The translations under genes and the position numbers were made by a program. From Bacteroidia bacterium (GTDB lineage: Bacteria; Bacteroidota; Bacteroidia; Bacteroidales; Prolixibacteraceae): 48,513 nt of DNA. How positions within the stretch are numbered: position 1 is the first letter of the stretch; the number at the start of each line of letters is the position of its first letter. Below the pieces are notes generated by a model that searched no databases, was not told the origin of the DNA, and saw nothing but the letters and a program-made list of their open reading frames with translations. The stretch lies in NCBI GenBank assembly GCA_026391655.1, contig JAPLDR010000066.1, positions 1 to 48,513 of the forward strand, given 5' to 3'. This document shows positions 1 through 35,687 of the stretch, piece after piece.

Positions 1-58
1 CTGTAATTGTTGTGGCATCAATTCCATGAACTGCACTGCCATAGGTTTTTACAAGCAT
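1..58 (-). CDS. YifB/ComM-family Mg-chelatase-like ATPase, 5' end only
   Basis: Only the first 19 codons are in the window; the gene runs off the left edge. Read on the minus strand from the ATG at 58-56, the protein begins MLVKTYGSAVHGIDATTIT. This matches the highly conserved start of YifB/ComM proteins (MLxKTxGSAVxGxxAxxI), which are AAA+ ATPases with a Mg-chelatase domain; ComM helps branch migration during natural transformation. A TAACTTTA sequence at 92-85 on the minus strand resembles the -7 box but lacks the final G. The call rests on the N-terminal signature alone, so it is likely but not certain. Confidence 0.7.
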   Translation of the reverse strand, partial: MLVKTYGSAVHGIDATTIT

Positions 59-140
59 ATATTAGGTGGTTAACTATTGTAAGCTAAAGTTACAATAATT
101 TTAGTGAAATTACAATCAGTACTTTTAAAAGATTACTTAA

Positions 141-299
141 ATCTATATCTTTAAAATTAATTTGAATATTTCAGGTAATAGCCTTAAAAATGCTGTAATA
201 ATTTCCGGTTATAACCTTACATTCATTGAGGCGACAGGAACAAGCAACATGCCGATTACTAAAACTTGTAAAAGATTTCTGAAATCACTAAATTTGTAA
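141..299 (+). pseudogene. Possible C-terminal relic of an unknown gene
   Basis: After a stop at 138-140, an open stretch of 52 codons ends at the TAA at 297-299, with no ATG near its beginning. The C-terminal part reads like real protein (for example ISGYNLTFIEATGTSNMPIT), and it ends 13 bases before the antitoxin-like ATG at 313. It may be the tail of a lost gene. I do not recognise the family, and chance openness in A+T-rich DNA is possible. Confidence 0.2.
289..296 (+). promoter_or_regulatory. Bacteroidota -7 promoter box (TAAATTTG)
   Basis: The sequence fits TAnnTTTG exactly, with a TTG 20 bases upstream (266-268) in the place of a -33 element. It lies 16 bases before the ATG at 313 and would drive the truncated antitoxin-like gene. 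Confidence 0.45.
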
Positions 300-312
300 A
301 AAATACGGACAT

Positions 313-471
313 ATGAGAAATACTATACAATATATAATAGATAATCAGGAGGTTAAAACTTTGGTTATTGTTCCGTTTGATAAATGGGAAAAAATCAATT
401 CTGATTACAAGAAACTTCGAAATAAACTCCCCCTCGTTTGTAACGAGGGGTTAGTTGTCAATCGTTTGTAA
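313..471 (+). pseudogene. Antitoxin-like gene truncated by a REP repeat
   Basis: The first 39 codons (starting MRNTIQYIIDNQEVKTLVIV, then PFDKWEKINSDYKKL) resemble the N-terminus of small Phd-like antitoxins of type II toxin-antitoxin systems, in which a short beta-hairpin domain is followed by a helix. The REP repeat beginning at 430 then supplies the remaining codons (PLVCNEGLVVNRL) and a stop, so the native C-terminus, which normally binds the toxin, is missing. A good -7 box precedes the gene. No toxin gene follows. The family call is from pattern memory; the truncation by the repeat is seen directly. Confidence 0.5.
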
Positions 472-475
472 CGAA
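430..475 (+). repeat. REP repeat copy 1 (two-hairpin type)
   Basis: Hairpin 1 (430-450) has a 9-bp stem around a TGT loop, with core CCCTCGTTTGTAACGAGGG. After a spacer (TTAGTTGTCAA) hairpin 2 has a 5-bp stem with the same loop (TCGTTTGTAACGA). This copy interrupts the antitoxin-like gene at 313. Confidence 0.85.
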
Positions 476-530
476 TTGGTAGTTACACCCGTATCAATGC
501 AAATTAGGCTTTCCAGATTTAACTTCTCTA

Positions 531-578
531 CCCCTCGTTTGTAATGAGGGGTAAGTTGTTAGTCGTTTGTAACACGAT
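531..578 (+). repeat. REP repeat copy 2
   Basis: Same two-hairpin layout as the copy at 430, with one change in the first stem (TAATGAGGGG), spacer TAAGTTGTTAG, and a small AC insertion before the final CGAT. Its end runs into the 29-base segment shared with the start of the gene at 4493. Confidence 0.85.
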
Positions 579-603
579 CAAGAACTGAAAAAAAATGAAA
601 AAC
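575..603 (+). repeat. 29-base segment duplicated at 4473-4501
   Basis: This stretch, ending in ATGAAAAAC, matches 4473-4501 at 28 of 29 positions. At 4473-4501 it is the leader and first codons of a membrane-protein gene. Here the match stops 7 bases before REP copy 3 (611). It looks like the beginning of a second copy of that gene, cut off at the fourth codon by repeat insertion or recombination. Confidence 0.7.
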
Positions 604-610
604 GGGGCTA

Positions 611-656
611 CCCCTCCTTTGTAACGAGGAGTTAATTGTCAGTCGTTTGTAACGAT
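611..656 (+). repeat. REP repeat copy 3
   Basis: First hairpin CCCCTCCTTTGTAACGAGGAG-like (611-631) with one mismatch in the stem, spacer TTAATTGTCAG, then the conserved TCGTTTGTAACGAT. It ends 16 bases before the CPBP protease start codon, so it forms part of that gene's leader. Confidence 0.85.
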
Positions 657-672
657 CAATACAGCATAGGAG

Positions 673-1398
673 ATGACGAAAATGATAAGTGAATTATTTC
701 AGAGAATACCCCATAAAAATTGGAAAACTGCATTAATTCTTTTTATGTTAATATTGATAGTTCATATCGCTGCAGCTTTTTTCAAATCACTATTTCTTAA
801 TTTTATTGGTATGTCATTATATATTATCGTACCTCTAATATGTATTAAGCGTAGCTTATGGAAAGAAATAAGAATAAAAAAACCGATTAACTCAAAATAT
901 ATTTTATGGGGAACTCTATTAATAGTGTTTATTGTCGTAATTACTTCAATAATTTACTATTTCATTTGGGGACTTACAACTTCCAATTACATGGTCATTA
1001 TGGCAAAACAACAAATGGGGTATGGAGTAATTAACAAAGCAAATGAATGGAAGTATTTTCCTATCGCCGCACTTGGTTTTTGTCTCATCAGTCCGTTTAC
1101 TGAAGAATTCTTTTATAGAGGTCTCCTTTTAAAAGCTCTAGAATATAGATTTCGCCTAAGTATAGCAAATATAATTCATGCATTCCTATTTGGAATAGTC
1201 CACTTATTCTATTTTGGGCTTGTAGAGTTTAATTGGGGTTTATTACTCTTTATTCCTATAGGACTTCCTGGTAGCTACTTATTTGGATGGATAGTCCAAA
1301 AAACAGAATCAGTATTTTCATCAGTCATTCTTCACATAGTGCATAATTTCATAGTGATTCTTTTGGTATATACATTTATTATTCCAGTAATTGGGTAA
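673..1398 (+). CDS. CPBP-family intramembrane glutamic protease
   Basis: A 241-residue multi-spanning membrane protein with the CPBP (Abi/CaaX protease) signature: EEFFYR with E144, E145 and R149, then H177 in FGIVHL, and H224/N225 in HIVHN. These are the catalytic and metal/water-binding positions of Rce1-like proteases. Family members process prenylated proteins or peptides, or protect against bacteriocins; the substrate here is unknown. The ATG at 673 directly abuts an AGGAG (668-672), while the in-frame ATG at 682 sits 9 bases after it, so translation may really begin at 682. The gene is flanked by REP repeats on both sides and is isolated, which suggests cargo of a recombining region. 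Confidence 0.85.
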   Translation: MTKMISELFQRIPHKNWKTALILFMLILIVHIAAAFFKSLFLNFIGMSLYIIVPLICIKRSLWKEIRIKKPINSKYILWGTLLIVFIVVITSIIYYFIWGLTTSNYMVIMAKQQMGYGVINKANEWKYFPIAALGFCLISPFTEEFFYRGLLLKALEYRFRLSIANIIHAFLFGIVHLFYFGLVEFNWGLLLFIPIGLPGSYLFGWIVQKTESVFSSVILHIVHNFIVILLVYTFIIPVIG

Positions 1399-1445
1399 GT
1401 ATTGAATAATAACAAAACAATTAAGAAAGTTGAAGAATTTCTCTA

Positions 1446-1491
1446 ACCCTCGTTTGTAACGAGGGGTAAGTTGTAAGTCGTTTGTAACGAT
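1446..1491 (+). repeat. REP repeat copy 4, upstream of RAYT relic
   Basis: Carries CCCTCGTTTGTAACGAGGGG, spacer TAAGTTGTAAG and TCGTTTGTAACGATT. It lies 16 bases before the start codon of the decayed RAYT transposase, a normal arrangement for REP/RAYT units. Confidence 0.85.
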
Positions 1492-1507
1492 TATAATACA
1501 TCATGCT

Positions 1508-1663
1508 ATGTCATCAGAAAACTATTCCATCGAAGATCAGAATGCAGTTTACTTTCTGACCTTTACAATCACGGATTGGGTGGATATCTTTACCCGAAGT
1601 TGTTACCGAATGATAGTGATTGAACGGGACAGGCAGTTGCAAACGAGGAGTATTCAAAGGTAA
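1508..1663 (+). pseudogene. Decayed REP-associated (RAYT, Y1) transposase fragment
   Basis: The 51-codon frame beginning MSSENYSIEDQNAVYFLTFT, followed by ITDWVDIFTR, matches the conserved N-terminus of Bacteroidota RAYT/Y1 transposases (typically xxYFVTFTVVDWVDIFTR). RAYTs are single-strand DNA transposases related to IS200/IS605 that cut at REP hairpins. The HUH and catalytic tyrosine regions are absent: about 33 residues in, the similarity ends, and an inverted half REP (1636-1650) follows. REP copy 4 lies upstream in the opposite orientation to that half. The fragment is too short to be active; a functional RAYT elsewhere would be needed to move these REPs. Confidence 0.7.
1636..1650 (-). 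repeat. Inverted half REP at the end of the RAYT relic
   Basis: GTTGCAAACGAGGAG is the reverse complement of CTCCTCGTTTGCAAC, which matches the first half of the REP with one or two changes. With copy 4 it brackets the RAYT relic in inverted orientation. Confidence 0.55.
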
Positions 1664-1793
1664 TGTATATGTTAGATTTAATTTTGCAATAATCATAACA
1701 GTAGCTTATTGACTAATTTATTTGGAATTAGAATAAATTACACCTGATTTTAAAGAAGCAATAAAAAATTCGAATTATTGAATTGGTAATGTC

Positions 1794-1801
1794 TAATTTT
1801 G
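1794..1801 (+). promoter_or_regulatory. -7 promoter box (TAATTTTG) for the DUF4468 lipoprotein
   Basis: Exact fit to TAnnTTTG. A longer open frame could begin at the TTG at 1799, but that codon lies inside this box, so the ATG at 1835 is the better start. Confidence 0.5.
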
Positions 1802-1834
1802 AAGGAACTAAAATCAAATCCTAAAATTCGATCC

Positions 1835-2458
1835 ATGAAAACATCTTATTTTATTTTATTGGTTTTCCTTTTTTCGTCATGTATGACCATAAAATACGTG
1901 ACTGCTCCAAAGGCTAGTGAGATTATTGATGTTTCCGGCACAAAAAACGATCTTTATGTAAGTGCAAATCTATGGATGGTCAGAACTTTTGGGAGTGCTA
2001 AAAGTGTCATTCAATTTCAAGATAAAGAGGCAGGAAAGATTATGGGTAGGTATTTAATGAGGTCATTTGGAGTGGTGATTAAAGGGGCTTCCGCGATTGA
2101 TGTTTATTCTCTAATCACCATATCAGTAAAAGATAATGCAACAAGGATAGATATTGAACCACTAGGAAATTGGCCATACAATAAAAGTGGCTATGCATAC
2201 AGCTCTGAAATGGCGCAAATGGATATTAAAGCATTGATAAATGAATACAGAAAATTCATTTCACTAAAAGAAGATATTTGGCAAAAACCGAGTTTGCCAA
2301 TTTCAGCTAATAAAAATGAAATCCCTCAAAAGATTGTTGCACCGATTGATTCAAAGAAAAAGGTTGTTGCCCCTATTGAGACAAAGAAGAAGCCTGAGAA
2401 AATAGCAAAAACAAAAAATGTAAAACCTGTTCAAAAAGTCAATGAAGTATCACGTTGA
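1835..2458 (+). CDS. DUF4468-domain lipoprotein
   Basis: A 207-residue protein starting MKTSYFILLVFLFSSC, a lipoprotein signal peptide with its cysteine at residue 16, so it is probably membrane-anchored outside the cytoplasm. Residues about 35-145 carry the DUF4468 pattern, a TBP-like fold common in Bacteroidota: KNDLYVSANLWMVRTFGSAK, then VIQFQDKEAGKIMGR. The function of the family is unknown. The tail (about 155-207) is Lys/Pro/Val-rich with repeated VAPI(D/E)xKKK units and is probably unstructured. It stands alone behind its own promoter box. Confidence 0.8.
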   Translation: MKTSYFILLVFLFSSCMTIKYVTAPKASEIIDVSGTKNDLYVSANLWMVRTFGSAKSVIQFQDKEAGKIMGRYLMRSFGVVIKGASAIDVYSLITISVKDNATRIDIEPLGNWPYNKSGYAYSSEMAQMDIKALINEYRKFISLKEDIWQKPSLPISANKNEIPQKIVAPIDSKKKVVAPIETKKKPEKIAKTKNVKPVQKVNEVSR

Positions 2459-2502
2459 ATATTAAGCAATAAAAAATCCGACTGAAAGAGCCAGTAATAT
2501 TA

Positions 2503-2510
2503 TAACTTTG
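2503..2510 (+). promoter_or_regulatory. -7 promoter box (TAACTTTG)
   Basis: Exact fit to the Bacteroidota -7 consensus, 21 bases before the ATG at 2532, giving a short leader. Confidence 0.55.
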
Positions 2511-2531
2511 AGAGAATAAAATTCAAATTTT

Positions 2532-3458
2532 ATGAAAATCTGTCCTATTACTGAATTGCAAACTAAAGAGCTTTTGGGATTTGGAGGTGAAGTTCGTTAC
2601 AGTATCACCTCCTTTGGGAAACAAAGTATTATTGCACTGGAGGATTCATTCGATGAATTTTCCAAAACAGACCAATTCATAGAAAATAGGTATTTGATTG
2701 CGGGTGCCATATTAAATCATCAACTTAGAAATGGAGAAAGTGATGGAATTGCTTATTACTCAATTGGAATAGAGTGGGAGGAAAAACTGTCAAGAATCAT
2801 TTATCCCAAAACGCCAAAGGATAAAATGGATAATTTATTAAAAACACTTTACCAAATGCAAAGATATGATGGCGAAGAAATTAATTTAATGGGTTATGCC
2901 GCTAGTTTTGCTTTTTTGTCCCAACATTTCTTTAAAAATTCTTCTGAATATCATTTTTATTTTAGACTTCTTCAATCTGAGAATCTTATTGACCCAACTA
3001 AGACTTTTAGTAGCCGATTTACCCTCAAAGGTTTGAATTACTATTCAATTATTACTGAATCTGGTCGTTTATCAAATAAGTGCTTTGTGGCTATGGCTTT
3101 TAGTGATGAAACGAAGGAAATCAGAGAAGCTATTCGTGAAGCATTAAAAGTTACGGGCTTTGATCCAATTATAATAGATGAACAACATATCGACAGTCAT
3201 AAAACGATTAATGACGCAATTATCGCTGAATTAAAGGGAGCCAAATTTTGTATTGCTGATTTTACCATGCAGAGAGAAGGAGTTTATTTTGAGAGTGGAT
3301 TTGCTTTAGGACAGGGAAAGCCCGTAATTTATTGTTGTAGAAATGACCATTTTAAAAAATCTCACTTTGACACAAAGCATTTCGCACATATTTTGTATGA
3401 TACTCCTTCTGAATTGAAAGAGTCATTAATTAATAAGATTAACGCTTGGATAAAATGA
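2532..3458 (+). CDS. Nucleoside 2-deoxyribosyltransferase/TIR-like protein with helical N-terminal domain
   Basis: The last 125 or so of 308 residues form a Rossmann-like domain of the deoxyribosyltransferase/TIR-like superfamily: CFVAMAFSDET opens the first strand, AKFCIADFTMQREGVYFESG gives a second strand, and E254 in YFESGFALG aligns with the catalytic glutamate of this superfamily. FDTKHFAHILYDTPSELKE is the usual end of this subfamily. Residues 1-180 are mostly helical, and the part near 140-175 resembles a winged helix, perhaps a sensor. Related proteins occur in phage-defence neighbourhoods, where the domain cleaves NAD or nucleotides; this is an inference here. The gene is single, with its own promoter, between other accessory genes. 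Confidence 0.65.
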   Translation: MKICPITELQTKELLGFGGEVRYSITSFGKQSIIALEDSFDEFSKTDQFIENRYLIAGAILNHQLRNGESDGIAYYSIGIEWEEKLSRIIYPKTPKDKMDNLLKTLYQMQRYDGEEINLMGYAASFAFLSQHFFKNSSEYHFYFRLLQSENLIDPTKTFSSRFTLKGLNYYSIITESGRLSNKCFVAMAFSDETKEIREAIREALKVTGFDPIIIDEQHIDSHKTINDAIIAELKGAKFCIADFTMQREGVYFESGFALGQGKPVIYCCRNDHFKKSHFDTKHFAHILYDTPSELKESLINKINAWIK

Positions 3459-3538
3459 TGGGTTCTAATTCATTGTACTTAAGGTGCTGATACTATTCTG
3501 AATAAGAGAATCAATAAAACCAAATAAATTAATCGAAT

Positions 3539-4357
3539 ATGAAATTTAAAATTATCTCACTCGCTATTTTGATTTTAGCAGAGTTAAGTTCCGTTGGTCA
3601 AACTGGTTTTACAAGATCCAACGAATATAACAGATTAAGGCTTTCAACAAGTGATTTAAAGAAAATATGCAATTCGATTCTATACTACTATCTTGAAGTG
3701 CCGATTGATAGTTCTCTTCTTTCCGATAAGGCACACCTGTATATTACGTGTCAAAATAAAGGAAAAGAAATTATTTTAACTTCTTTCGATCAAATATCAG
3801 AACTAAACATTGATGGAGAAGACTATTCGGCCTTTAACTTAGATTATACATATCGAGCTAAACCAATAGCAGTGGTTAATATTGCATTAAGTAATTATAG
3901 CAGAACACTTTCTGTGACAGGGAAAGACATTAAGAAAGTCGAAGCTCTTTATAGAGATATTGATGATCAGCTTCGATCAAACGAAAATTCTTTAGGATGG
4001 ATAAATTGGGGGATGGTTTTTCTGTTTCTGTCTTTTATAATTTTTTCAGTTGCATTAACTTTTGGAATGATTGCCGCACAGGTATTATTTTCAAAGAAAC
4101 GTGATAAAGAATCAGTAGTTTCTTTTATTGTTTGTTTATTAATTTGTTTATTATTAATAATATTTTCTCTCTCACCAATTTCTTTTAGTGATATTTTCCC
4201 GGGGTTTCTTCTTACCAATGAAAAAGTGCCTTGGTACGTTAAAAATGCCCTCCTTATTGTTGTCATAGGTATATTAGGGTCATTTGGTACAATTTATCAA
4301 ATAATAATATTTTTGATTGGAAAGTCAAAAAAAGACTTTAAAACTACGGGTAAATAG
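3539..4357 (+). CDS. Unrecognised secreted-signal, multi-pass membrane protein
   Basis: I do not recognise this 272-residue protein. Residues 1-20 (MKFKIISLAILILAELSSVG, then Q) form a cleavable signal peptide. An outside-facing domain of about 135 residues follows, with a Tyr-rich early part (YYYLEVPID). Three hydrophobic segments lie at roughly 155-185, 195-218 and 235-262, and the end is Lys-rich (KSKKDFKTTGK), probably cytoplasmic. It follows the deoxyribosyltransferase-like gene by 80 bases without an obvious terminator, so co-transcription is possible. Confidence 0.6.
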   Translation: MKFKIISLAILILAELSSVGQTGFTRSNEYNRLRLSTSDLKKICNSILYYYLEVPIDSSLLSDKAHLYITCQNKGKEIILTSFDQISELNIDGEDYSAFNLDYTYRAKPIAVVNIALSNYSRTLSVTGKDIKKVEALYRDIDDQLRSNENSLGWINWGMVFLFLSFIIFSVALTFGMIAAQVLFSKKRDKESVVSFIVCLLICLLLIIFSLSPISFSDIFPGFLLTNEKVPWYVKNALLIVVIGILGSFGTIYQIIIFLIGKSKKDFKTTGK

Positions 4358-4364
4358 AACTCCT

Positions 4365-4430
4365 GATTGAGAAGGGTTTTTAACGCGGCGATGTTGACGA
4401 TATCCGTCAGTGCTGCTGATATTCCGGCGA
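4365..4430 (+). pseudogene. Decayed fragment of a DUF6922 gene
   Basis: The DNA aligns with codons about 32-50 of the intact DUF6922 gene at 5248. The relic reads IEKGF, stop, then RGDVDDIRQCC, stop; the intact gene reads IERVFSRGDVEDIRQCRRYY. The in-frame stops and small size show that it is dead. The divergence suggests an old duplicate rather than a recent copy. Confidence 0.6.
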
Positions 4431-4492
4431 TTTATCTCCGCAAAATAAACTCATATTAATAAGTTGAAAGAACGATCAAAAACTGAAAAAAA

Positions 4493-5001
4493 ATGAAAAA
4501 CTTACTGCTACCTTATCGCTGGAAATTTGTAGGATGGATCTTAACATTATGCGGAACTTTTTTTGCATTCCTTTATTTCGCGTTCAATTTTAAGTTTAAA
4601 ATTCCTGTTTTTGAGATGTACTCTTCTTTTCTGCGAACAAAAACGTTCGTTACTAAAACAACCAACTTTGCGGATGAATTGATTTTAATATTGCTGATTT
4701 CCGGTCTGGGATTGGTTATTCTTTCCAGGGAGAAAAATGAATCTGAAAATCTTGATTCGATACGCGCCATCGCTTTTGCCAGAGCCTTCCTGACAAATAT
4801 TGTTTTTTTATTATTTTCTATTGTTTTTATTTATGGTACCGGATTTATTACTGTTTTGGTTTTGAACCAAATATCTCTTTCCGTATTTTATATTGTCTTT
4901 TTTTTCTTCCTGAAACTAAAAAAGATGAATTCCTGAGTAAACGAAATTGGATCCTTTTGCTTGTCGTTTTCTCAGTTGCCTTTAGTTTGCTTTATCCTTA
5001 A
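4493..5001 (+). CDS. Unrecognised four-to-five-span membrane protein, frameshifted near its end
   Basis: As read, the ATG at 4493 gives 147 residues ending KLKKMNS at 4936, with hydrophobic segments at about 14-31, 60-77, 98-122 and 123-141. In the next frame the sequence continues without pause as KKDEFLSKRNWILLLVVFSV and more hydrophobic residues to a TAA at 4999-5001. One extra A in the A-run at 4915-4920 joins them into a 169-residue protein with one more membrane span. So the last span is lost by a 1-base deletion, by a sequencing error, or recovered by slippage on the A-run. The family is unknown to me. Its leader and first codons are duplicated at 575-603. Confidence 0.6.
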
Positions 5002-30304: not shown

Positions 30305-31291
30305 ATGGATAGATCGAAGATAAAAGGTCATATTGCGATACTGTGCACTTCTCTGATTTTTGGAGTGAATATTCCCCTTTCAAAGAATCTGATGCCCGAT
30401 TGGATGAGTCCGTTGGGTTTGACTTATTCACGTTTCGCCTTTGGCGCAATGGCCTTCTGGTTGCTTTCGCTATTTCTTAAATCTGAAAAAGTGACCCGAA
30501 AAGATATGGGAGCCTTATTCTTTGGATCGTTTTTAGGTGTTGGTCTAAACCAGGCTTCGTTTATATTTGGTTTGCAACACACCTCTTCAACAAATGCTTC
30601 CATTGTAATTACTATTACCCCAATTCTGGCAATGATCATCTCGTTTTTCATTCTGAAAGAGCCGATTACCTTTAAAAAAGCCGGAGGAGTTATTATTGGG
30701 TTGATTGGCGTTTTATCGATGATTCTAACTTCTGAAATATCAGCTTCAGGCCGTGAAGCTTCAATAATCGGCGACTTATTGTGCATCACAAGCAGCCTTT
30801 CCTATGCTTTCTACCTGGTTTTAATGCGTGGAATATCGAAGCGATACAGCTCAGTTACCATTATGAAGTGGATGTTTCTTTTCTCTTCACTGATGTTTTT
30901 ACCGTTTGGTTATAAAGATGTTATTTCCGCCAGAATTTTTTCGGAAGGTTCTTCAGTTGCCTGGGGTAGTTATATCTATTTGTTAGTCGGAGCCACGTTC
31001 TTTACTTATTTATTGATACCTGTGGCTCAGAAGCTGATACGCCCAACAACCATCGGGATGTACAATTATTTGCAGCCGCTTGTCGCTTCTTTTATTGCAA
31101 TTATGTGGGGTCAGGATATATTTTCCTGGACGAAACCCATTTCTGCTGTATTGATCTTTGCAGGAGTTTATTTTGTAACTACAAGCAAATCTCGCGAAGA
31201 TGTAGAACGCGAACGCTTGTTAAAATTGGAGAAAACGAACCTGGACAATTTACAGGTTTGCCCAATTATAGAACCGATATCCAAACCTTGA
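30305..31291 (+). CDS. EamA/DMT-family transporter
   Basis: A 328-residue inner-membrane protein with ten hydrophobic segments, forming two EamA repeats (about 8-140 and 155-290). Typical segments are NASIVITITPILAMIISFFI at the end of the first repeat and GMYNYLQPLVASFIAI in the second. The drug/metabolite transporter superfamily exports amino acids, nucleosides or similar small molecules; the substrate cannot be inferred. The cytoplasmic tail of about 35 residues is charged (SKSREDVERERLLKLEK). It is the last housekeeping-like gene before the TIR island. Confidence 0.9.
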   Translation: MDRSKIKGHIAILCTSLIFGVNIPLSKNLMPDWMSPLGLTYSRFAFGAMAFWLLSLFLKSEKVTRKDMGALFFGSFLGVGLNQASFIFGLQHTSSTNASIVITITPILAMIISFFILKEPITFKKAGGVIIGLIGVLSMILTSEISASGREASIIGDLLCITSSLSYAFYLVLMRGISKRYSSVTIMKWMFLFSSLMFLPFGYKDVISARIFSEGSSVAWGSYIYLLVGATFFTYLLIPVAQKLIRPTTIGMYNYLQPLVASFIAIMWGQDIFSWTKPISAVLIFAGVYFVTTSKSREDVERERLLKLEKTNLDNLQVCPIIEPISKP

Positions 31292-31440
31292 CTTTGCAGG
31301 CAGGCTGACCTTTTGTTTTTCATCAAATCAAACATCTTTTGTGCAAATTCTTTTTTACAGGATTTGAAAACTACCAACTTTTGATGTAAATAGCAGGATC
31401 AGTAACGTATCTGGTTGATAGACTAATAGACTTAAGGAAT

Positions 31441-31542
31441 ATGCAAGATTACACTAAACTAAGAGTCTTTGAAATAGGATTAAAATTTATAGATACTAAG
31501 AAAGTGCTTTGGGTACTTGTCCGAGCATTGCTGAAATGCTGA
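31441..31542 (+). pseudogene. Possible relic of a four-helix-bundle (S23/IVP-type) gene
   Basis: A 33-codon frame begins MQDYTKLRVFEIGLKFIDTK and then loses any family likeness before a stop. The start resembles small four-helix-bundle proteins (MxDYxKLxVWxxG...), which are about 120 residues long. It would be a remnant at the left border of the TIR/GNAT island. The match is short and uncertain. Confidence 0.3.
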
Positions 31543-31573
31543 AAGTCTTTAGCCCACAGTCTAAATAATCTAT

Positions 31574-32323
31574 TTAAACAGGAAATTCCTTCAATTTAAT
31601 TTCACCATTCACTAAAGATTTTTCAATTTCATTTTTCATTTTAATAAATGTTCTATTTTTCATTGGAGAAAGTATATTAAGGCTTTTATATAGGTCGGAA
31701 AGAAAGTCCATAACAATTTTGTAGTCAATAGAGTTATGTATTGATTCTACTAAGGGTATACAAAAAAGATATAAATTATGAACTTCTTTCAAATTGCTAC
31801 TTAGAGCAGGTTGTGTATAAGGAATATCAACTAAACGGGCATTTATCCTGGAAAAAATCTTCAAGCGTAATACAGGGTCAATACTATCTAATTCAATATC
31901 TGTCTTTTCAGGAATATTTGATTCAAAAAAAATAACATTAAAAGTTAGATTATTTATTAGCTCAAGCCACTTGATAGTATCAAATATTCCTTTTTTTAAT
32001 GAAGACCATGCACCAATACCCCTATAAGCCGAATCAATGAAAACATATGTAATATGGAGGCATTTGCTTGTCAAATAATAATCAGCTATTACGCCACCTA
32101 TAATTTTTTCTTCATTATCATATTTACAGAGTAAAATAAAGGTATGTGGGTCATATTCAGTACGTTTACCTTTGACGCGATTTAAAATATTTTTTAATGG
32201 CTCCCTTTCATTTTCATCAGGGAATTCAGATATATATATTTCGGTGAGCCGTTTAAGACCTGAATCGTATTTCTCATAATCTTCTGAATTTATTAATTTG
32301 GTAATACTGCAATGATGTTTCAT
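31574..32323 (-). CDS. GNAT-family N-acetyltransferase linked to a TIR gene
   Basis: A 249-residue protein with a GNAT-like acetyl-CoA-binding core: IIGGVIADYYL gives the central strand, and ITYVFIDSAYRGIGAWSSLK contains the pyrophosphate-binding motif R-G-x-G-A at 101-105. GNAT enzymes move an acetyl group to an amine of a protein, sugar or small molecule. The last 100 residues (from 150) have no clear GNAT match and are helical and Ile/Lys-rich. It lies downstream of the TIR gene on the same strand, across a 217-base gap. Base composition is strongly A+T-rich, unlike the flanking clpB, sbcD and sbcC genes. The pairing suggests a shared task, but this is inference. Confidence 0.65.
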   Translation of the reverse strand: MKHHCSITKLINSEDYEKYDSGLKRLTEIYISEFPDENEREPLKNILNRVKGKRTEYDPHTFILLCKYDNEEKIIGGVIADYYLTSKCLHITYVFIDSAYRGIGAWSSLKKGIFDTIKWLELINNLTFNVIFFESNIPEKTDIELDSIDPVLRLKIFSRINARLVDIPYTQPALSSNLKEVHNLYLFCIPLVESIHNSIDYKIVMDFLSDLYKSLNILSPMKNRTFIKMKNEIEKSLVNGEIKLKEFPV

Positions 32324-32540
32324 AAAATGGTAATTTAAATTTATAGGTTTATTAAATCAATACTTCTTCTGAATTACAGTTTACGATTACTGATAATATT
32401 ATCTACTAGTATTCATTTGTTTGTTTCAGGAAATTCAGGTTATTTATTTTGGAACAAAACCTTTCCAATATGTCTGAAAAATTGTCATTAACTATTGTAT
32501 ACATTTATCTGAAAGTATATTTTATTTAACAAATTGTGCT

Positions 32541-34250
32541 TTACATAGTACTCTCGTTAACCCTTTTATGTAGTGCTGAAACAAAATCAATAACGTCCGA
32601 AGGTTGCCGTCTTTCATTTTTATTAAGTATTACAAATCTTTTATGAATAATTTTTTCCCCGTTATCCAACTCTTCAATTTGTTTTTCAAGAATCTTTTCA
32701 ATATCGTCATCAAAAAGTGCAATAGAAAACATATAATACCCCTGCTCTTTGTATGCTTCGACTTCTTCACATTCCAATATATGGTGAAGAGCTTTTCTGA
32801 CCAAACACCCTTGAAGAAATTCCAGACCTAATCTACTTGCAATATTAGCGTGTTCAAAAAAAGGCAAAACCAGTCCGGGCTCCATCTTTTCACAGCAATA
32901 GATTTTACCGTCTTCTAAAGCCTCTACAGAAATATTTTTAAAATCATCATTATTTAGTTTTACCATTTTTTTTTCTTCTATTTTACCATTGTATTTCATT
33001 TTAACTTGCTCCAGAATTAACCAGACATATGCAGAGTTATAATATGGTTTATTGCGCCATATATTAAATATTTTGTTGCTTTTATTAGTATAAAACAAAG
33101 CTATTTCAGGTAATAGAAATTCGTTGTCTTCGTTATTGATATTTTGAAAAATGTGATGCTTATATATTTTAGAAAAAAATTTATCCTTTTTAAGGTTTAT
33201 TAGTATCAAGTTTTTAAGCTTTAATGGCCACCCGCTTTTCCTATTTTGGTATTCTTCACTAAAACACTTTCGCCAATTTTCTTTGCGGATAACTAAAGGA
33301 AGAGAATTGGCTTCATCACCCGTGGAAACCTGGGCTATCATATATTCATAACTTTCGTCATTTAATAAAAAGGATGTATCAATAGAAGGTCCCCAGGATA
33401 GCCAGCAAAACTCAACGAAATAATGAAAATCGTCAAGCGAACCGATATTTTTTTTACACAATGTAACATAAGCATTTATTATCGGGGGCCAATTATCTGC
33501 TACTCTGGTAATTAATCCGGTTAATAAGAATAAGGGGCTTAAATAACATTCTTCGATTGTAATTGGTTTGCTTAACAAATTTGTAAAAGTATCTTTCCCC
33601 CATTTCCAATTTTTACTCCTGATTTCTAAATTTTCAATAGCATTGGTTAATGTTGATGTTAATTGAAAAATGTGCGGAATTGTATAGGACCTTTTCGGTT
33701 TAAACAAATTTATGTTATCGAGCATCCTGGTTATCTGTTCATTTTCATCTAATTTTACTTTTCCACTAGCTATTTCTTTATTTGAAGGGAGCTTTCCCAA
33801 TCCCATAATGTAAATATCTTTTGGAATTTTAAGAAAATTCATTAAAAAGGCTTTTAATTGTTCTTCGAAACCATTATTATACATATAAAGGGCTTGAAAA
33901 TCTGCTAAATCAGGCCGTTTAGAAAATTCTGTTTCTGCATCACTTTTAATTAATATTGGTAAAATTTTTTTTTTAAGTTTTATCGCTCTTGTGACTTCTT
34001 TTTTAACCTCTAGTGATTTTAACGATTCTAATGAAACATAAAAAATAACTAAAGATGCGTTAATAATTGCTTTATTTATTTGTTTTGCCCATTTTGCAGC
34101 AGGGTTCAAATTCTCCACATCAAAAAATGTATTAAACCCTTGTTCCTTAATCAACTTAATATTTTTAATCAAATTTTTTCTGTCATCTGATTCTTTATTA
34201 GTATTTAGGCGAGAATAACTAATAAAAATTAATGGTTTGTTTGTTTCCAT
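32541..34250 (-). CDS. TIR-domain protein with a large unrecognised C-terminal region
   Basis: A 569-residue protein. Residues 5-135 form a TIR domain: IFISYSR at its first strand, FFDVENLNPAAKWAKQINKA as the BB-loop region, and SLVIFYVSLESLKSLEVKKE, in which E85 aligns with the catalytic glutamate of NAD-cleaving bacterial TIRs. The remaining 430 residues match no domain I recognise; they are helical, with Trp-rich motifs (KNWKWGKDTF, FCWLSWGPSI) and a later segment (FFEHANIASRLGLEFLQGCL). TIR effectors in phage defence deplete NAD or make signal nucleotides when a sensor region detects infection, and the C-terminal part could be that sensor. The frame begins at a TTG at 34259, but ATG at 34250 (METNKPLIF) is preferred. 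Confidence 0.75.
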   Translation of the reverse strand: METNKPLIFISYSRLNTNKESDDRKNLIKNIKLIKEQGFNTFFDVENLNPAAKWAKQINKAIINASLVIFYVSLESLKSLEVKKEVTRAIKLKKKILPILIKSDAETEFSKRPDLADFQALYMYNNGFEEQLKAFLMNFLKIPKDIYIMGLGKLPSNKEIASGKVKLDENEQITRMLDNINLFKPKRSYTIPHIFQLTSTLTNAIENLEIRSKNWKWGKDTFTNLLSKPITIEECYLSPLFLLTGLITRVADNWPPIINAYVTLCKKNIGSLDDFHYFVEFCWLSWGPSIDTSFLLNDESYEYMIAQVSTGDEANSLPLVIRKENWRKCFSEEYQNRKSGWPLKLKNLILINLKKDKFFSKIYKHHIFQNINNEDNEFLLPEIALFYTNKSNKIFNIWRNKPYYNSAYVWLILEQVKMKYNGKIEEKKMVKLNNDDFKNISVEALEDGKIYCCEKMEPGLVLPFFEHANIASRLGLEFLQGCLVRKALHHILECEEVEAYKEQGYYMFSIALFDDDIEKILEKQIEELDNGEKIIHKRFVILNKNERRQPSDVIDFVSALHKRVNESTM

Positions 34251-34323
34251 AATAAACAATTGTTAATTAAGAATATAATTGTCTAAGAAATTAGAATCTA
34301 TTTAAAAATAGATAGCAAATTTA

Positions 34324-34331
34324 CAAAATTA
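34324..34331 (-). promoter_or_regulatory. -7 promoter box (TAATTTTG) for the TIR gene
   Basis: Exact consensus on the minus strand, 73 bases before the TIR ATG. The same gap must hold the promoter of sbcD in the other direction, for which I see no good box. Confidence 0.45.
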
Positions 34332-34463
34332 ATTTATTATTTTTCAAGAAAAATTCAAAAACTAAAGGGACAGATTGACGTTGATCCTCCACAACAAAGG
34401 AAAAACTCAAAAAAAAGGCGACTTTACAGACAGACTCTAATTAATCATCATAATCTAAATCTA

Positions 34464-35687
34464 ATGAAGCTACTTCACACCTCCGACTGGCATCTTGGTA
34501 AACGATTGGAAAATCTATCCCGTCTCGATGAACAAAAGGATGTTCTTAAAGAGATCTGCGGGATCGCTGAGACCGAACAGGTTGATGCAGTGATTGTTTC
34601 AGGCGACCTTTTCGATACCTACAATCCGTCAGCCGAAGCAGTCGAACTGTTTTATAAAACGCTGAAACGTCTTGCAAACAATGGGAAGCGTGCTGTAATT
34701 GCCATAGCAGGTAATCACGATTCACCCGACCGAATCGAGGCTCCCGATCCGCTGGCACGAGAATGTGGAATCCTGTTTGCCGGTTATCCCAATGCAATAA
34801 TTCCACCATTTGAACTGGAATCAGGATTGAAAGTCATCCAAAGTGAGGAGGGTTTTGTTGAACTTTTGGTACCTGGTTGTCCCGGGCCTTTGCGGTTGTT
34901 GCTGACTCCTTATGCCAACGAATTCAGACTAAAAGCATATCTCGGTCACGAAGATTCGGAAGAGGAATTACGTAAATTATTAAACGACAAATGGTCTGCC
35001 CTGTCTCAGAAATACTGTGATAATAATGGAATAAACATTTTAATCTCGCATCTTTTTTTCGCCCGGAAAGGAGCAGTATTACCAGAGGAACCGGAGGATG
35101 AGAAACCAATACTTCATGTTGGAGGGGCGCAGGTGATCTATTCGGAGAATATTCCTTCACAAATCCAATATTGTGCGCTGGGCCATCTGCACCGTAAACA
35201 AACCATCGATTCAAATCCATGCCCGGTCATTTATTGTGGTAGTCCGCTCTCGTATAGTTTTGCCGAAGCTGACCAAAAAAAGTATGTTGTGGTAATTGAA
35301 GCCGAACCCGGAAAGACACCCGTTATCTCGAACCATGAACTGACTAAAGCGAAACGGTTATTGCGTAAAAGAGCTTTCAGTGTAGTTGAGGCTATTGAAT
35401 GGCTGAAGGAGCATCAGTCGGCACTTATCGAATTGACAATGAGTACCGATACTTATTTGACGGCAGAAGAACGCAAATTACTGAATAACACTCACAACGG
35501 GATTATCTCGATCATCCCTGACGTAAAAAGTGGAGATGGCGATCCTGTGAATTTTAGAAGGATAATCGATTTGAGCAAGAGTATGGAGGAACTGTTCACC
35601 GACTATTTCAGGTACGAGAAAGGGCAGGAGCCTAATCAACAGATTTTGAACTTGTTCAAAGAAGTTTTGGCAGAGGACGAAGAATAG
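34464..35687 (+). CDS. sbcD: Exonuclease subunit SbcD (Mre11-like)
   Basis: A 407-residue metallophosphoesterase nuclease. LLHTSDWHLGKRLE, VIVSGDLFDTYNP and IAIAGNHDSPDRIEA hold the metal-binding Asp/His/Asn residues; ISHLFFARKGA and CALGHLHRKQ complete the site. With SbcC it opens hairpins and trims DNA ends. The lengths and order (sbcD then sbcC) are standard. A 131-base gap with a hairpin repeat separates the two genes. Confidence 0.96.
   Translation: MKLLHTSDWHLGKRLENLSRLDEQKDVLKEICGIAETEQVDAVIVSGDLFDTYNPSAEAVELFYKTLKRLANNGKRAVIAIAGNHDSPDRIEAPDPLARECGILFAGYPNAIIPPFELESGLKVIQSEEGFVELLVPGCPGPLRLLLTPYANEFRLKAYLGHEDSEEELRKLLNDKWSALSQKYCDNNGINILISHLFFARKGAVLPEEPEDEKPILHVGGAQVIYSENIPSQIQYCALGHLHRKQTIDSNPCPVIYCGSPLSYSFAEADQKKYVVVIEAEPGKTPVISNHELTKAKRLLRKRAFSVVEAIEWLKEHQSALIELTMSTDTYLTAEERKLLNNTHNGIISIIPDVKSGDGDPVNFRRIIDLSKSMEELFTDYFRYEKGQEPNQQILNLFKEVLAEDEE

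Follow-up and report, generated by a model that had tools for sequence, protein, structure and literature searches.

In CBASS, a sensor domain takes either a TIR domain, as in the TIR-SAVED and TIR-STING effectors, or a membrane module, as in the TM effectors. Bacteria often use TIR domains to shut themselves down when infected. The TIR domain is characterized by the catalytic motif S-x-W-x-x-x-E, and acetyltransferases of the GNAT superfamily carry the acetyl-CoA loop motif R/Q-x-x-G-x-G/A. Kaur et al. 2020 (PMC7159879) describe EADs that are carried both by a core protein and, a second time, by an effector, and propose them as coupling adaptors; the same effectors, for example TIR domains and peptidases, may also be fused to the core directly. 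A GNAT domain is named there among the vWA-linked effectors, so that a GNAT in a system of the EAD type is not new per se. The name EAD11, used below, is Pfam's and has no occurrence in the text of that paper. In a different setting, GNAT domains are also mentioned in passages on Dnd- and BREX-related systems (PMC10853773, PMC12839542).

The locus described here lies in a stretch of 48,513 nucleotides, called the window, from a Bacteroidia bacterium of the family Prolixibacteraceae, and it was singled out as a candidate defence system made of a TIR gene and a GNAT gene. Comparison with other genomes shows that the unit that recurs is another one, namely a domain at the C-terminus of the TIR protein, named X in this work, together with the GNAT; the TIR is one of three modules found in the N-terminal slot of X. 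Among the literature matches listed, which include few subscription papers, there is no title on TIR-X, on X-GNAT, or on a two-gene system of TIR and GNAT.

The two genes and their insertion site

Both genes were found where the original prediction had placed them, on the same (reverse) strand and with the TIR gene upstream. By its open reading frame and Pfam matches, the TIR-X gene extends over 32541..34250 from an ATG start, with a TTG at 34259 also possible; the protein has 569 aa from the ATG and 572 aa from the TTG, and its residues are given in TTG numbering. The GNAT gene (31574..32323, reverse strand) encodes the X partner, a protein of 249 aa. The gap between the two genes measures 217 bp and has no ORF of at least 50 aa.

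The pair had been described as an island richer in A+T than clpB, sbcD, and sbcC, and the A+T richness is borne out. The genes sit in an A+T-rich insertion of 3,049 bp between eamA and sbcD (31402..34450), with a GC of 0.289 vs 0.408 and 0.406 in the flanks, the minimum among 910 overlapping 3,049-bp segments of the whole stretch. Its edges were set by comparison with the empty sites of congeners. In a search for sbcD over 18 genomes of the genus, own included, 4 of the 17 congeners matched, and three of these four have the order clpB-eamA-sbcD-sbcC with zero genes between eamA and sbcD; around the sbcD of the fourth, eamA was not found within 14 kb. The same comparison, with the empty sites L048 and L049, reveals a 4-bp direct repeat, ATCA, at the edges of the insertion (31398..31401 and 34447..34450, forward strand), which may be an identity by chance. 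Neither gene of the insert encodes a transposase, and an Rfam scan of 31200-34600 gave zero matches. The only other gene content is an ORF of 33 codons (31441..31542, forward strand), which had been taken for a possible gene relic: the frame is present, has no Pfam match, and is left unassigned.

The TIR domain spans aa 11-135 (33855..34229, reverse strand) and belongs to the TIR family by profile, with matches to Pfam TIR_2 (E=2.2e-13; 51.2 bits vs a cut-off of 28) and ThsB_TIR (4e-5; 24.4 bits vs 21.2). On the window proteins, PADLOC and NCBIfam touch the TIR part only, weakly or far under cut-off, and Pfam gives no EAD match. A phmmer search of the TIR part against PDB chains returned none at E<=0.01, and the AlphaFold model of the window TIR protein (pLDDT 38.9) offers no usable fold. 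Reading the sequence by eye, Glu88 (33996..33998, reverse strand; Glu85 from the ATG) occupies the place of the motif Glu and is putatively catalytic, as that Glu is in the TIR family. The putative catalytic glutamate named earlier is thus present at this place; the aromatic position is held by Glu84. It is plausible that the domain is the predicted NAD-consuming effector of the pair.

The X domain, its GNAT, and a second partner

BLASTP to fused relatives places X at aa 233-572 of the TIR protein (32544..33563, reverse strand). Over residues 233-556 it is homologous to the X of fused TM-X-GNAT proteins, with values of 1e-22 to L020, 6e-14 to L023, and 1e-12 to L052. When 18 chosen columns of the X alignment are considered, 14 are identical in 11/11 rows and 4 deviate in one row. 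Two motifs stand out on the reverse strand: WGPS (aa 289-292; 33384..33395), invariant in all 11 rows, and G-D/E-E-x-N-S/T (aa 314-319; 33303..33320). Residues S292, Q310, E316, N318, and H470 are kept in every row, and D/E315, S/T319, E469, and N/D472 have one deviating row each (of 11). Judged by this pattern, the conserved polar residues look like a ligand or catalytic site. The X + GNAT family, as defined in this analysis, comprises WGPS, G-D/E-E-x-N, and H, with a GNAT fused or adjacent, and all of these are present in the window.

The C-terminal region of the TIR protein does not appear to be a known metabolic domain, zero such matches having emerged from the libraries searched. X in the scanned relatives, and likewise the domain Y introduced below, reach the cut-off of no Pfam, NCBIfam, or PADLOC model (nine relatives for the latter two libraries), and X has no match among PDB sequences. 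The model of one fused relative, L024 (pLDDT 82.6), shows X as a mixed alpha/beta part, together with a helix at the N-terminus and a GNAT. Its GNAT part folds as a GNAT, with Foldseek matches to RimI and GCN5. Against the PDB, the best 50 of 756 Foldseek matches are all acetyltransferases, and against BFVD so are most of the best 50 of 432, the others being unnamed or of low probability. Because the matches listed point to the GNAT part, X itself is left without a fold assignment.

The window GNAT is a member of the GNAT superfamily by Pfam Acetyltransf_1 (E=4e-5; 24.2 bits vs a cut-off of 20.7). It is 41% identical over 216 aa to the GNAT of a congener, G405, and 27% identical to the GNAT half of L024 (E=2e-16). 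Its acetyl-CoA loop, R101-G-I-G-A-W106 (32006..32023, reverse strand), retains the G of the motif, missing in 2/9 other rows, and departs from the motif at the last place, where the nine other rows have Ala. With W106, the enzyme may be a weak, slow, or dead acetyltransferase; it may also bind acetyl-CoA without turnover.

How firmly are X and GNAT associated? A GNAT of the same family, divergent in one case, is found in 11/11 X loci, fused in eight and adjacent in three (the window, the Novosphingobium plasmid locus L039, and the congener locus L055). Seven of these loci were reached via the GNAT, and the window was the starting point, so that these eight say little about co-occurrence; the remaining three were found through X alone, and a GNAT is present in 3/3. 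The first is a TM-X protein encoded on a conjugative plasmid of Novosphingobium, where the GNAT gene is convergent with the X gene and overlaps it slightly. The second, from a different genome of the order to which the window belongs (1/149 besides that of the window), is a single TM-X-GNAT chain with a divergent GNAT half (BLASTP 0.018 to the window GNAT; 6e-4 by profile). In the third, the X protein of a congener is followed directly by a GNAT gene (1/100 family genomes besides that of the window). Fusions of the type TM-X-GNAT occur in Bacillota, in Mycobacterium, and in the genome of the same order.

Since X is fused to, or adjoins, the same GNAT family elsewhere, TIR-X and GNAT are very probably linked in function and act as a unit. 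The proposal that the two genes belong together is strengthened by these fusions from other genomes. As a recurring pair, TIR and GNAT fare differently: no second TIR-X was found in the genomes searched, and a check on co-occurrence succeeds for the C-terminal region with GNAT and would fail for the TIR-GNAT pairing alone.

The distribution is sparse. The whole TIR protein has no match in genome contigs (peptide patterns), viral contigs, plasmids, or phages; its single match among 395 genomes of the phylum is in its own genome, and 61 relatives yield two, its own and a frame of 1,447 aa that is matched by the TIR alone (aa 7-115). X occurs in 2/149 genomes of the order and in 2/100 of the family, own included, and in 296 genomes of the phylum only in its own. 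It was not found in viral contigs, and in 299 genomes of L020's phylum and 200 of L023's order only the seeds were recovered. Relatives occur on plasmids as well.

At nine loci the N-terminal slot of X holds a hydrophobic helix; in the window it is filled by the TIR, and in G405 by a domain that is EAD11-like. Taking a mean Kyte-Doolittle value of at least 1.6 over 19 residues as the criterion, a hydrophobic segment near the N-terminus is present in 9/9 TM-type X proteins and in neither the window TIR-X nor the G405 X protein. In G405, one strand encodes in succession an EAD11-trypsin, an amidohydrolase, a 92-aa ORF, the EAD11-like X protein, and the GNAT, the last two with a gap of 0 bp. The EAD11-trypsin reaches 39.7 bits for EAD11 and 1e-17 for Trypsin_2; EAD11 on the X protein has 24.3 bits, under the Pfam cut-off of 26, and the likeness between the two EAD11 stretches is only weak (35% over 54 aa, E=0.05). 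Some weak NCBIfam matches were dismissed as coincidence or as a signal common to GNATs: the Novosphingobium X protein matched an unrelated effector model (12.8 bits vs 621), and L007 and L052 matched a model of an aminoglycoside acetyltransferase (20.5 and 14.3 bits, respectively, vs 200).

X is not the only partner of this GNAT. In a scan for relatives of the GNAT, 22 loci emerged: 9 GNAT-Y single chains, 4 with a GNAT gene and then a Y gene, 7 TM-X-GNAT single chains (6 Bacillota, 1 Mycobacterium), 1 lone GNAT, and 1 archaeal protein without X and without Y. The second partner, Y, is a membrane protein and accompanies the GNAT in 13/13 Bacteroidota loci of the scan. Two C-terminal hydrophobic segments were seen in 5/5 tested of the nine GNAT-Y chains and in a tenth chain, L061, which brings the loci with GNAT and partner in one chain to 10 for Y, besides 8 for X. 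A Rhodococcus gene of 757 aa (L041) was considered as Y and rejected; it has two C-terminal hydrophobic segments but no Y match. By profile comparison, X and Y are unrelated (probability 0.3%).

A tree of 28 GNAT domains (the X-partnered GNAT of G405, found later, is left out) splits the X-fused GNATs from the rest with moderate support (90/87) and contains several very long end branches. The window GNAT falls on the Y side, nearest to L007 (42%) and without a well-supported clade; the GNAT of Novosphingobium, an X partner, clusters with two plasmid GNATs that have Y as partner (100/100). Read plainly, the tree suggests that X and Y replaced one another beside the GNAT.

The surroundings of eight TM-X-GNAT loci were surveyed through 59 of 65 listed neighbour proteins, with family matches given per set and not traced to single neighbours. 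The Pfam families (best 25 of 67) pertain largely to transport and metabolism, for example ABC transporters and menaquinone, cell-wall, and sugar nucleotidyltransferase genes, with AAA_21 in two. Among the PADLOC families (25 of 31), the commonest are mad3 and mad8, each with 4 members, followed by AriA (3); most others have 1, and no defence family recurs clearly. In our reading, the fused genes do not lie in a clear defence island.

Possible roles of the pair

It seems fairly likely that the pair in the window is a conflict system. More specifically, we lean towards a two-gene conflict module, probably of the anti-phage abortive-infection kind, with X+GNAT as the sensing core and the TIR as effector. 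This reading is adopted because of the homology of X, the 11/11 linkage to GNAT, the variety of modules in the slot, the G405 cluster, the exchange of partners, the low-GC insert with its empty site, and the plasmid relatives. For the defence role first proposed, the support comes from the EAD11-trypsin, EAD11-like X, and GNAT cluster of G405, and none is added by a recurrence of TIR with GNAT. Several observations count against the module: in the TIR, the aromatic residue usual before the catalytic Glu is missing, TIR-X was seen once, the neighbours of the fused genes show no clear defence island, X and Y match no PADLOC or NCBIfam model above cut-off in the relatives scanned, the 217-bp gap makes co-transcription uncertain, the W106 loop is odd, the window GNAT resembles Y-partnered GNATs more than X-fused ones, one fusion, that of the same order, has a very divergent GNAT half, EAD11 on the G405 X protein is under cut-off and only weakly like that of the trypsin, and X has no assigned fold.

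How would such a module work? X+GNAT would be a sensing or licensing core, and the module at the N-terminus of X the effector or the adaptor of an effector; in the window, the TIR would fill this slot. Once X is triggered, the TIR domains would cluster, and NAD+ would be consumed or a nucleotide signal made, stopping both the cell and the phage. The weakest step concerns the GNAT, which would modify either X itself or a small molecule that X binds, by use of acetyl-CoA, and in this way hold the effector in check or mark the infection.

Taken more widely, these data suggest a family of defence modules, hitherto undescribed, whose effectors can be swapped. A bolder and more tentative proposal is that X+GNAT and Y+GNAT, seen in Bacteroidota, Bacillota, Actinomycetota, and Pseudomonadota, form an undescribed immune core in which a GNAT step that requires acetyl-CoA gates exchangeable effectors, be they a membrane module, a TIR NADase, or EAD11-recruited proteases; the window would hold its TIR-armed form. 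If true, a new core would be added to the one-sensor, swappable-effector logic of bacterial immunity, the adjacency of a TIR gene and a GNAT gene would be explained, and the GNAT-Y membrane proteins of Bacteroidota would be predicted to be immune proteins too. We know of no earlier immune core with an acetyltransferase as its constant partner, and X can now be named as a concrete domain with invariant polar residues.

Defence may not be involved at all. X-GNAT, and Y-GNAT with it, could be an acetyltransferase that is anchored in the membrane and serves metabolism or an envelope pathway, with the TIR as a scaffold replacing the anchor, and the lack of a clear defence island around the fused genes and the broad yet sparse distribution over phyla suit this idea. 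It is nevertheless unlikely, given the EAD11-trypsin and the EAD11-like X protein of the congener, the sporadic occurrence (2/149 and 2/100 genomes, own included), the Glu retained by the TIR, and the insert and plasmid settings.

Slightly more doubtful still is an addictive module in which TIR-X is constitutively toxic and the GNAT silences it by acetylation or binding, protection being only indirect. Two genes, an insert, and plasmid-borne relatives speak for it, as does the GNAT being the constant partner of differing effector-like proteins; however, GNAT and partner form one chain in 8 X and 10 Y loci, which is not the way of typical labile antitoxins, the gene for the toxic part precedes that for the GNAT, and the gap has no ORF of at least 50 aa. 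That two unrelated foreign genes became chance neighbours in one A+T-rich insert would agree with the 217-bp gap and with a second TIR-X + GNAT pair not being found, but is most improbable with X and the GNAT family fused or adjacent in 11/11 X loci, 3/3 of those reached via X only.

Comparison with known systems

The conflict module favoured here shares single features with several known systems. As in the TacT/AtaT toxins, a GNAT is part of a two-gene mobile module; unlike them, there is no small antitoxin-like partner, the partner being X or Y, and the window GNAT, with 249 aa, has a C-terminal extension of its own. The ribbon-helix-helix (DUF1778) antitoxin of TacAT/AtaRT has no above-cut-off match in either window protein. 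The likeness to the TIR proteins of short Argonautes (PADLOC Aga_TIR, E=1.1e-5) is confined to the TIR part, with a match (aa 39-124) that stops inside the TIR; the other genes of the insert are the GNAT and the 33-codon ORF.

With Thoeris, the common element is ThsB, since the window TIR reaches Pfam ThsB_TIR; the differences are an insert without ThsA and the presence of X at the C-terminus of the TIR protein. The NCBIfam model of Thoeris type III gives 14 bits vs a cut-off of 220. Like the sensor of the TIR-SAVED and TIR-STING effectors of CBASS, X takes a TIR or a membrane module. CBASS, however, pairs a CD-NTase with SAVED, STING, or another receptor, and no such profile match is found in the insert; the window X has no match to SAVED or STING in Pfam, and the partner is a GNAT.

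The EAD-coupled VMAP/iSTAND ternary systems offer the last comparison. No vWA, MoxR, VMAP, or STAND component was seen, and the X proteins scanned with Pfam have no VMAP or STAND match; here the core is X, and the recurring partner is the GNAT. As in passages describing those systems (PMC7159879), a core has an N-terminal slot that holds a TIR, a peptidase, or an EAD adaptor, and in G405 an EAD-trypsin lies near an EAD-like core protein. By this analogy, X behaves like a core of the EAD-system kind.

GNAT relatives in other settings

The GNAT family of the window also occurs elsewhere. In congener G405, genes for an EAD11-trypsin protein, an amidohydrolase, a 92-aa ORF, an EAD11-like protein carrying domain X (the C-terminal part of the window TIR protein) and a GNAT follow one another on the same strand (L055:6530-11493), and this stretch is a candidate conflict locus. 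On a Rhodococcus sp. DMU1 plasmid (L041:2550-9509), a 757-aa protein with two hydrophobic segments at its C-terminal end is followed by a GNAT of the family and then by a caspase-domain gene; genes of the HEXXH peptide-modification and radical SAM types lie on the opposite strand. Finally, a putative viral contig (IMG/VR, L029:7992-9382) encodes a lone GNAT of the family, after which comes a calcineurin-like phosphoesterase.

Additional GNAT copies

Two loci, L015 (6237-7715) and the TM-X-GNAT locus L023 (5352-6137), hold a second family protein near the first. In three loci from Larkinella and Fibrella (L012, L013 and L018), the GNAT gene precedes a gene for a protein of ~1,200 aa, inside which profile matches (5e-3, 5e-9 and 4e-9, respectively) seem to mark a degenerate GNAT copy before the second membrane partner, Y.

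Other features of the window

Another low-GC stretch (positions 1-5000, GC 0.32) holds a plus-strand gene (2532-3458) whose product combines a nucleoside deoxyribosyltransferase-like domain (6e-7) with a below-cut-off CAP12/PCTIR TIR match; this protein may be a second effector that acts on nucleotides. Upstream of the TIR gene, inspection by eye finds an imperfect -33 element and, on the minus strand, TAAATTTG (34316-34323), which resembles the Bacteroidota -7 element, TAnnTTTG.
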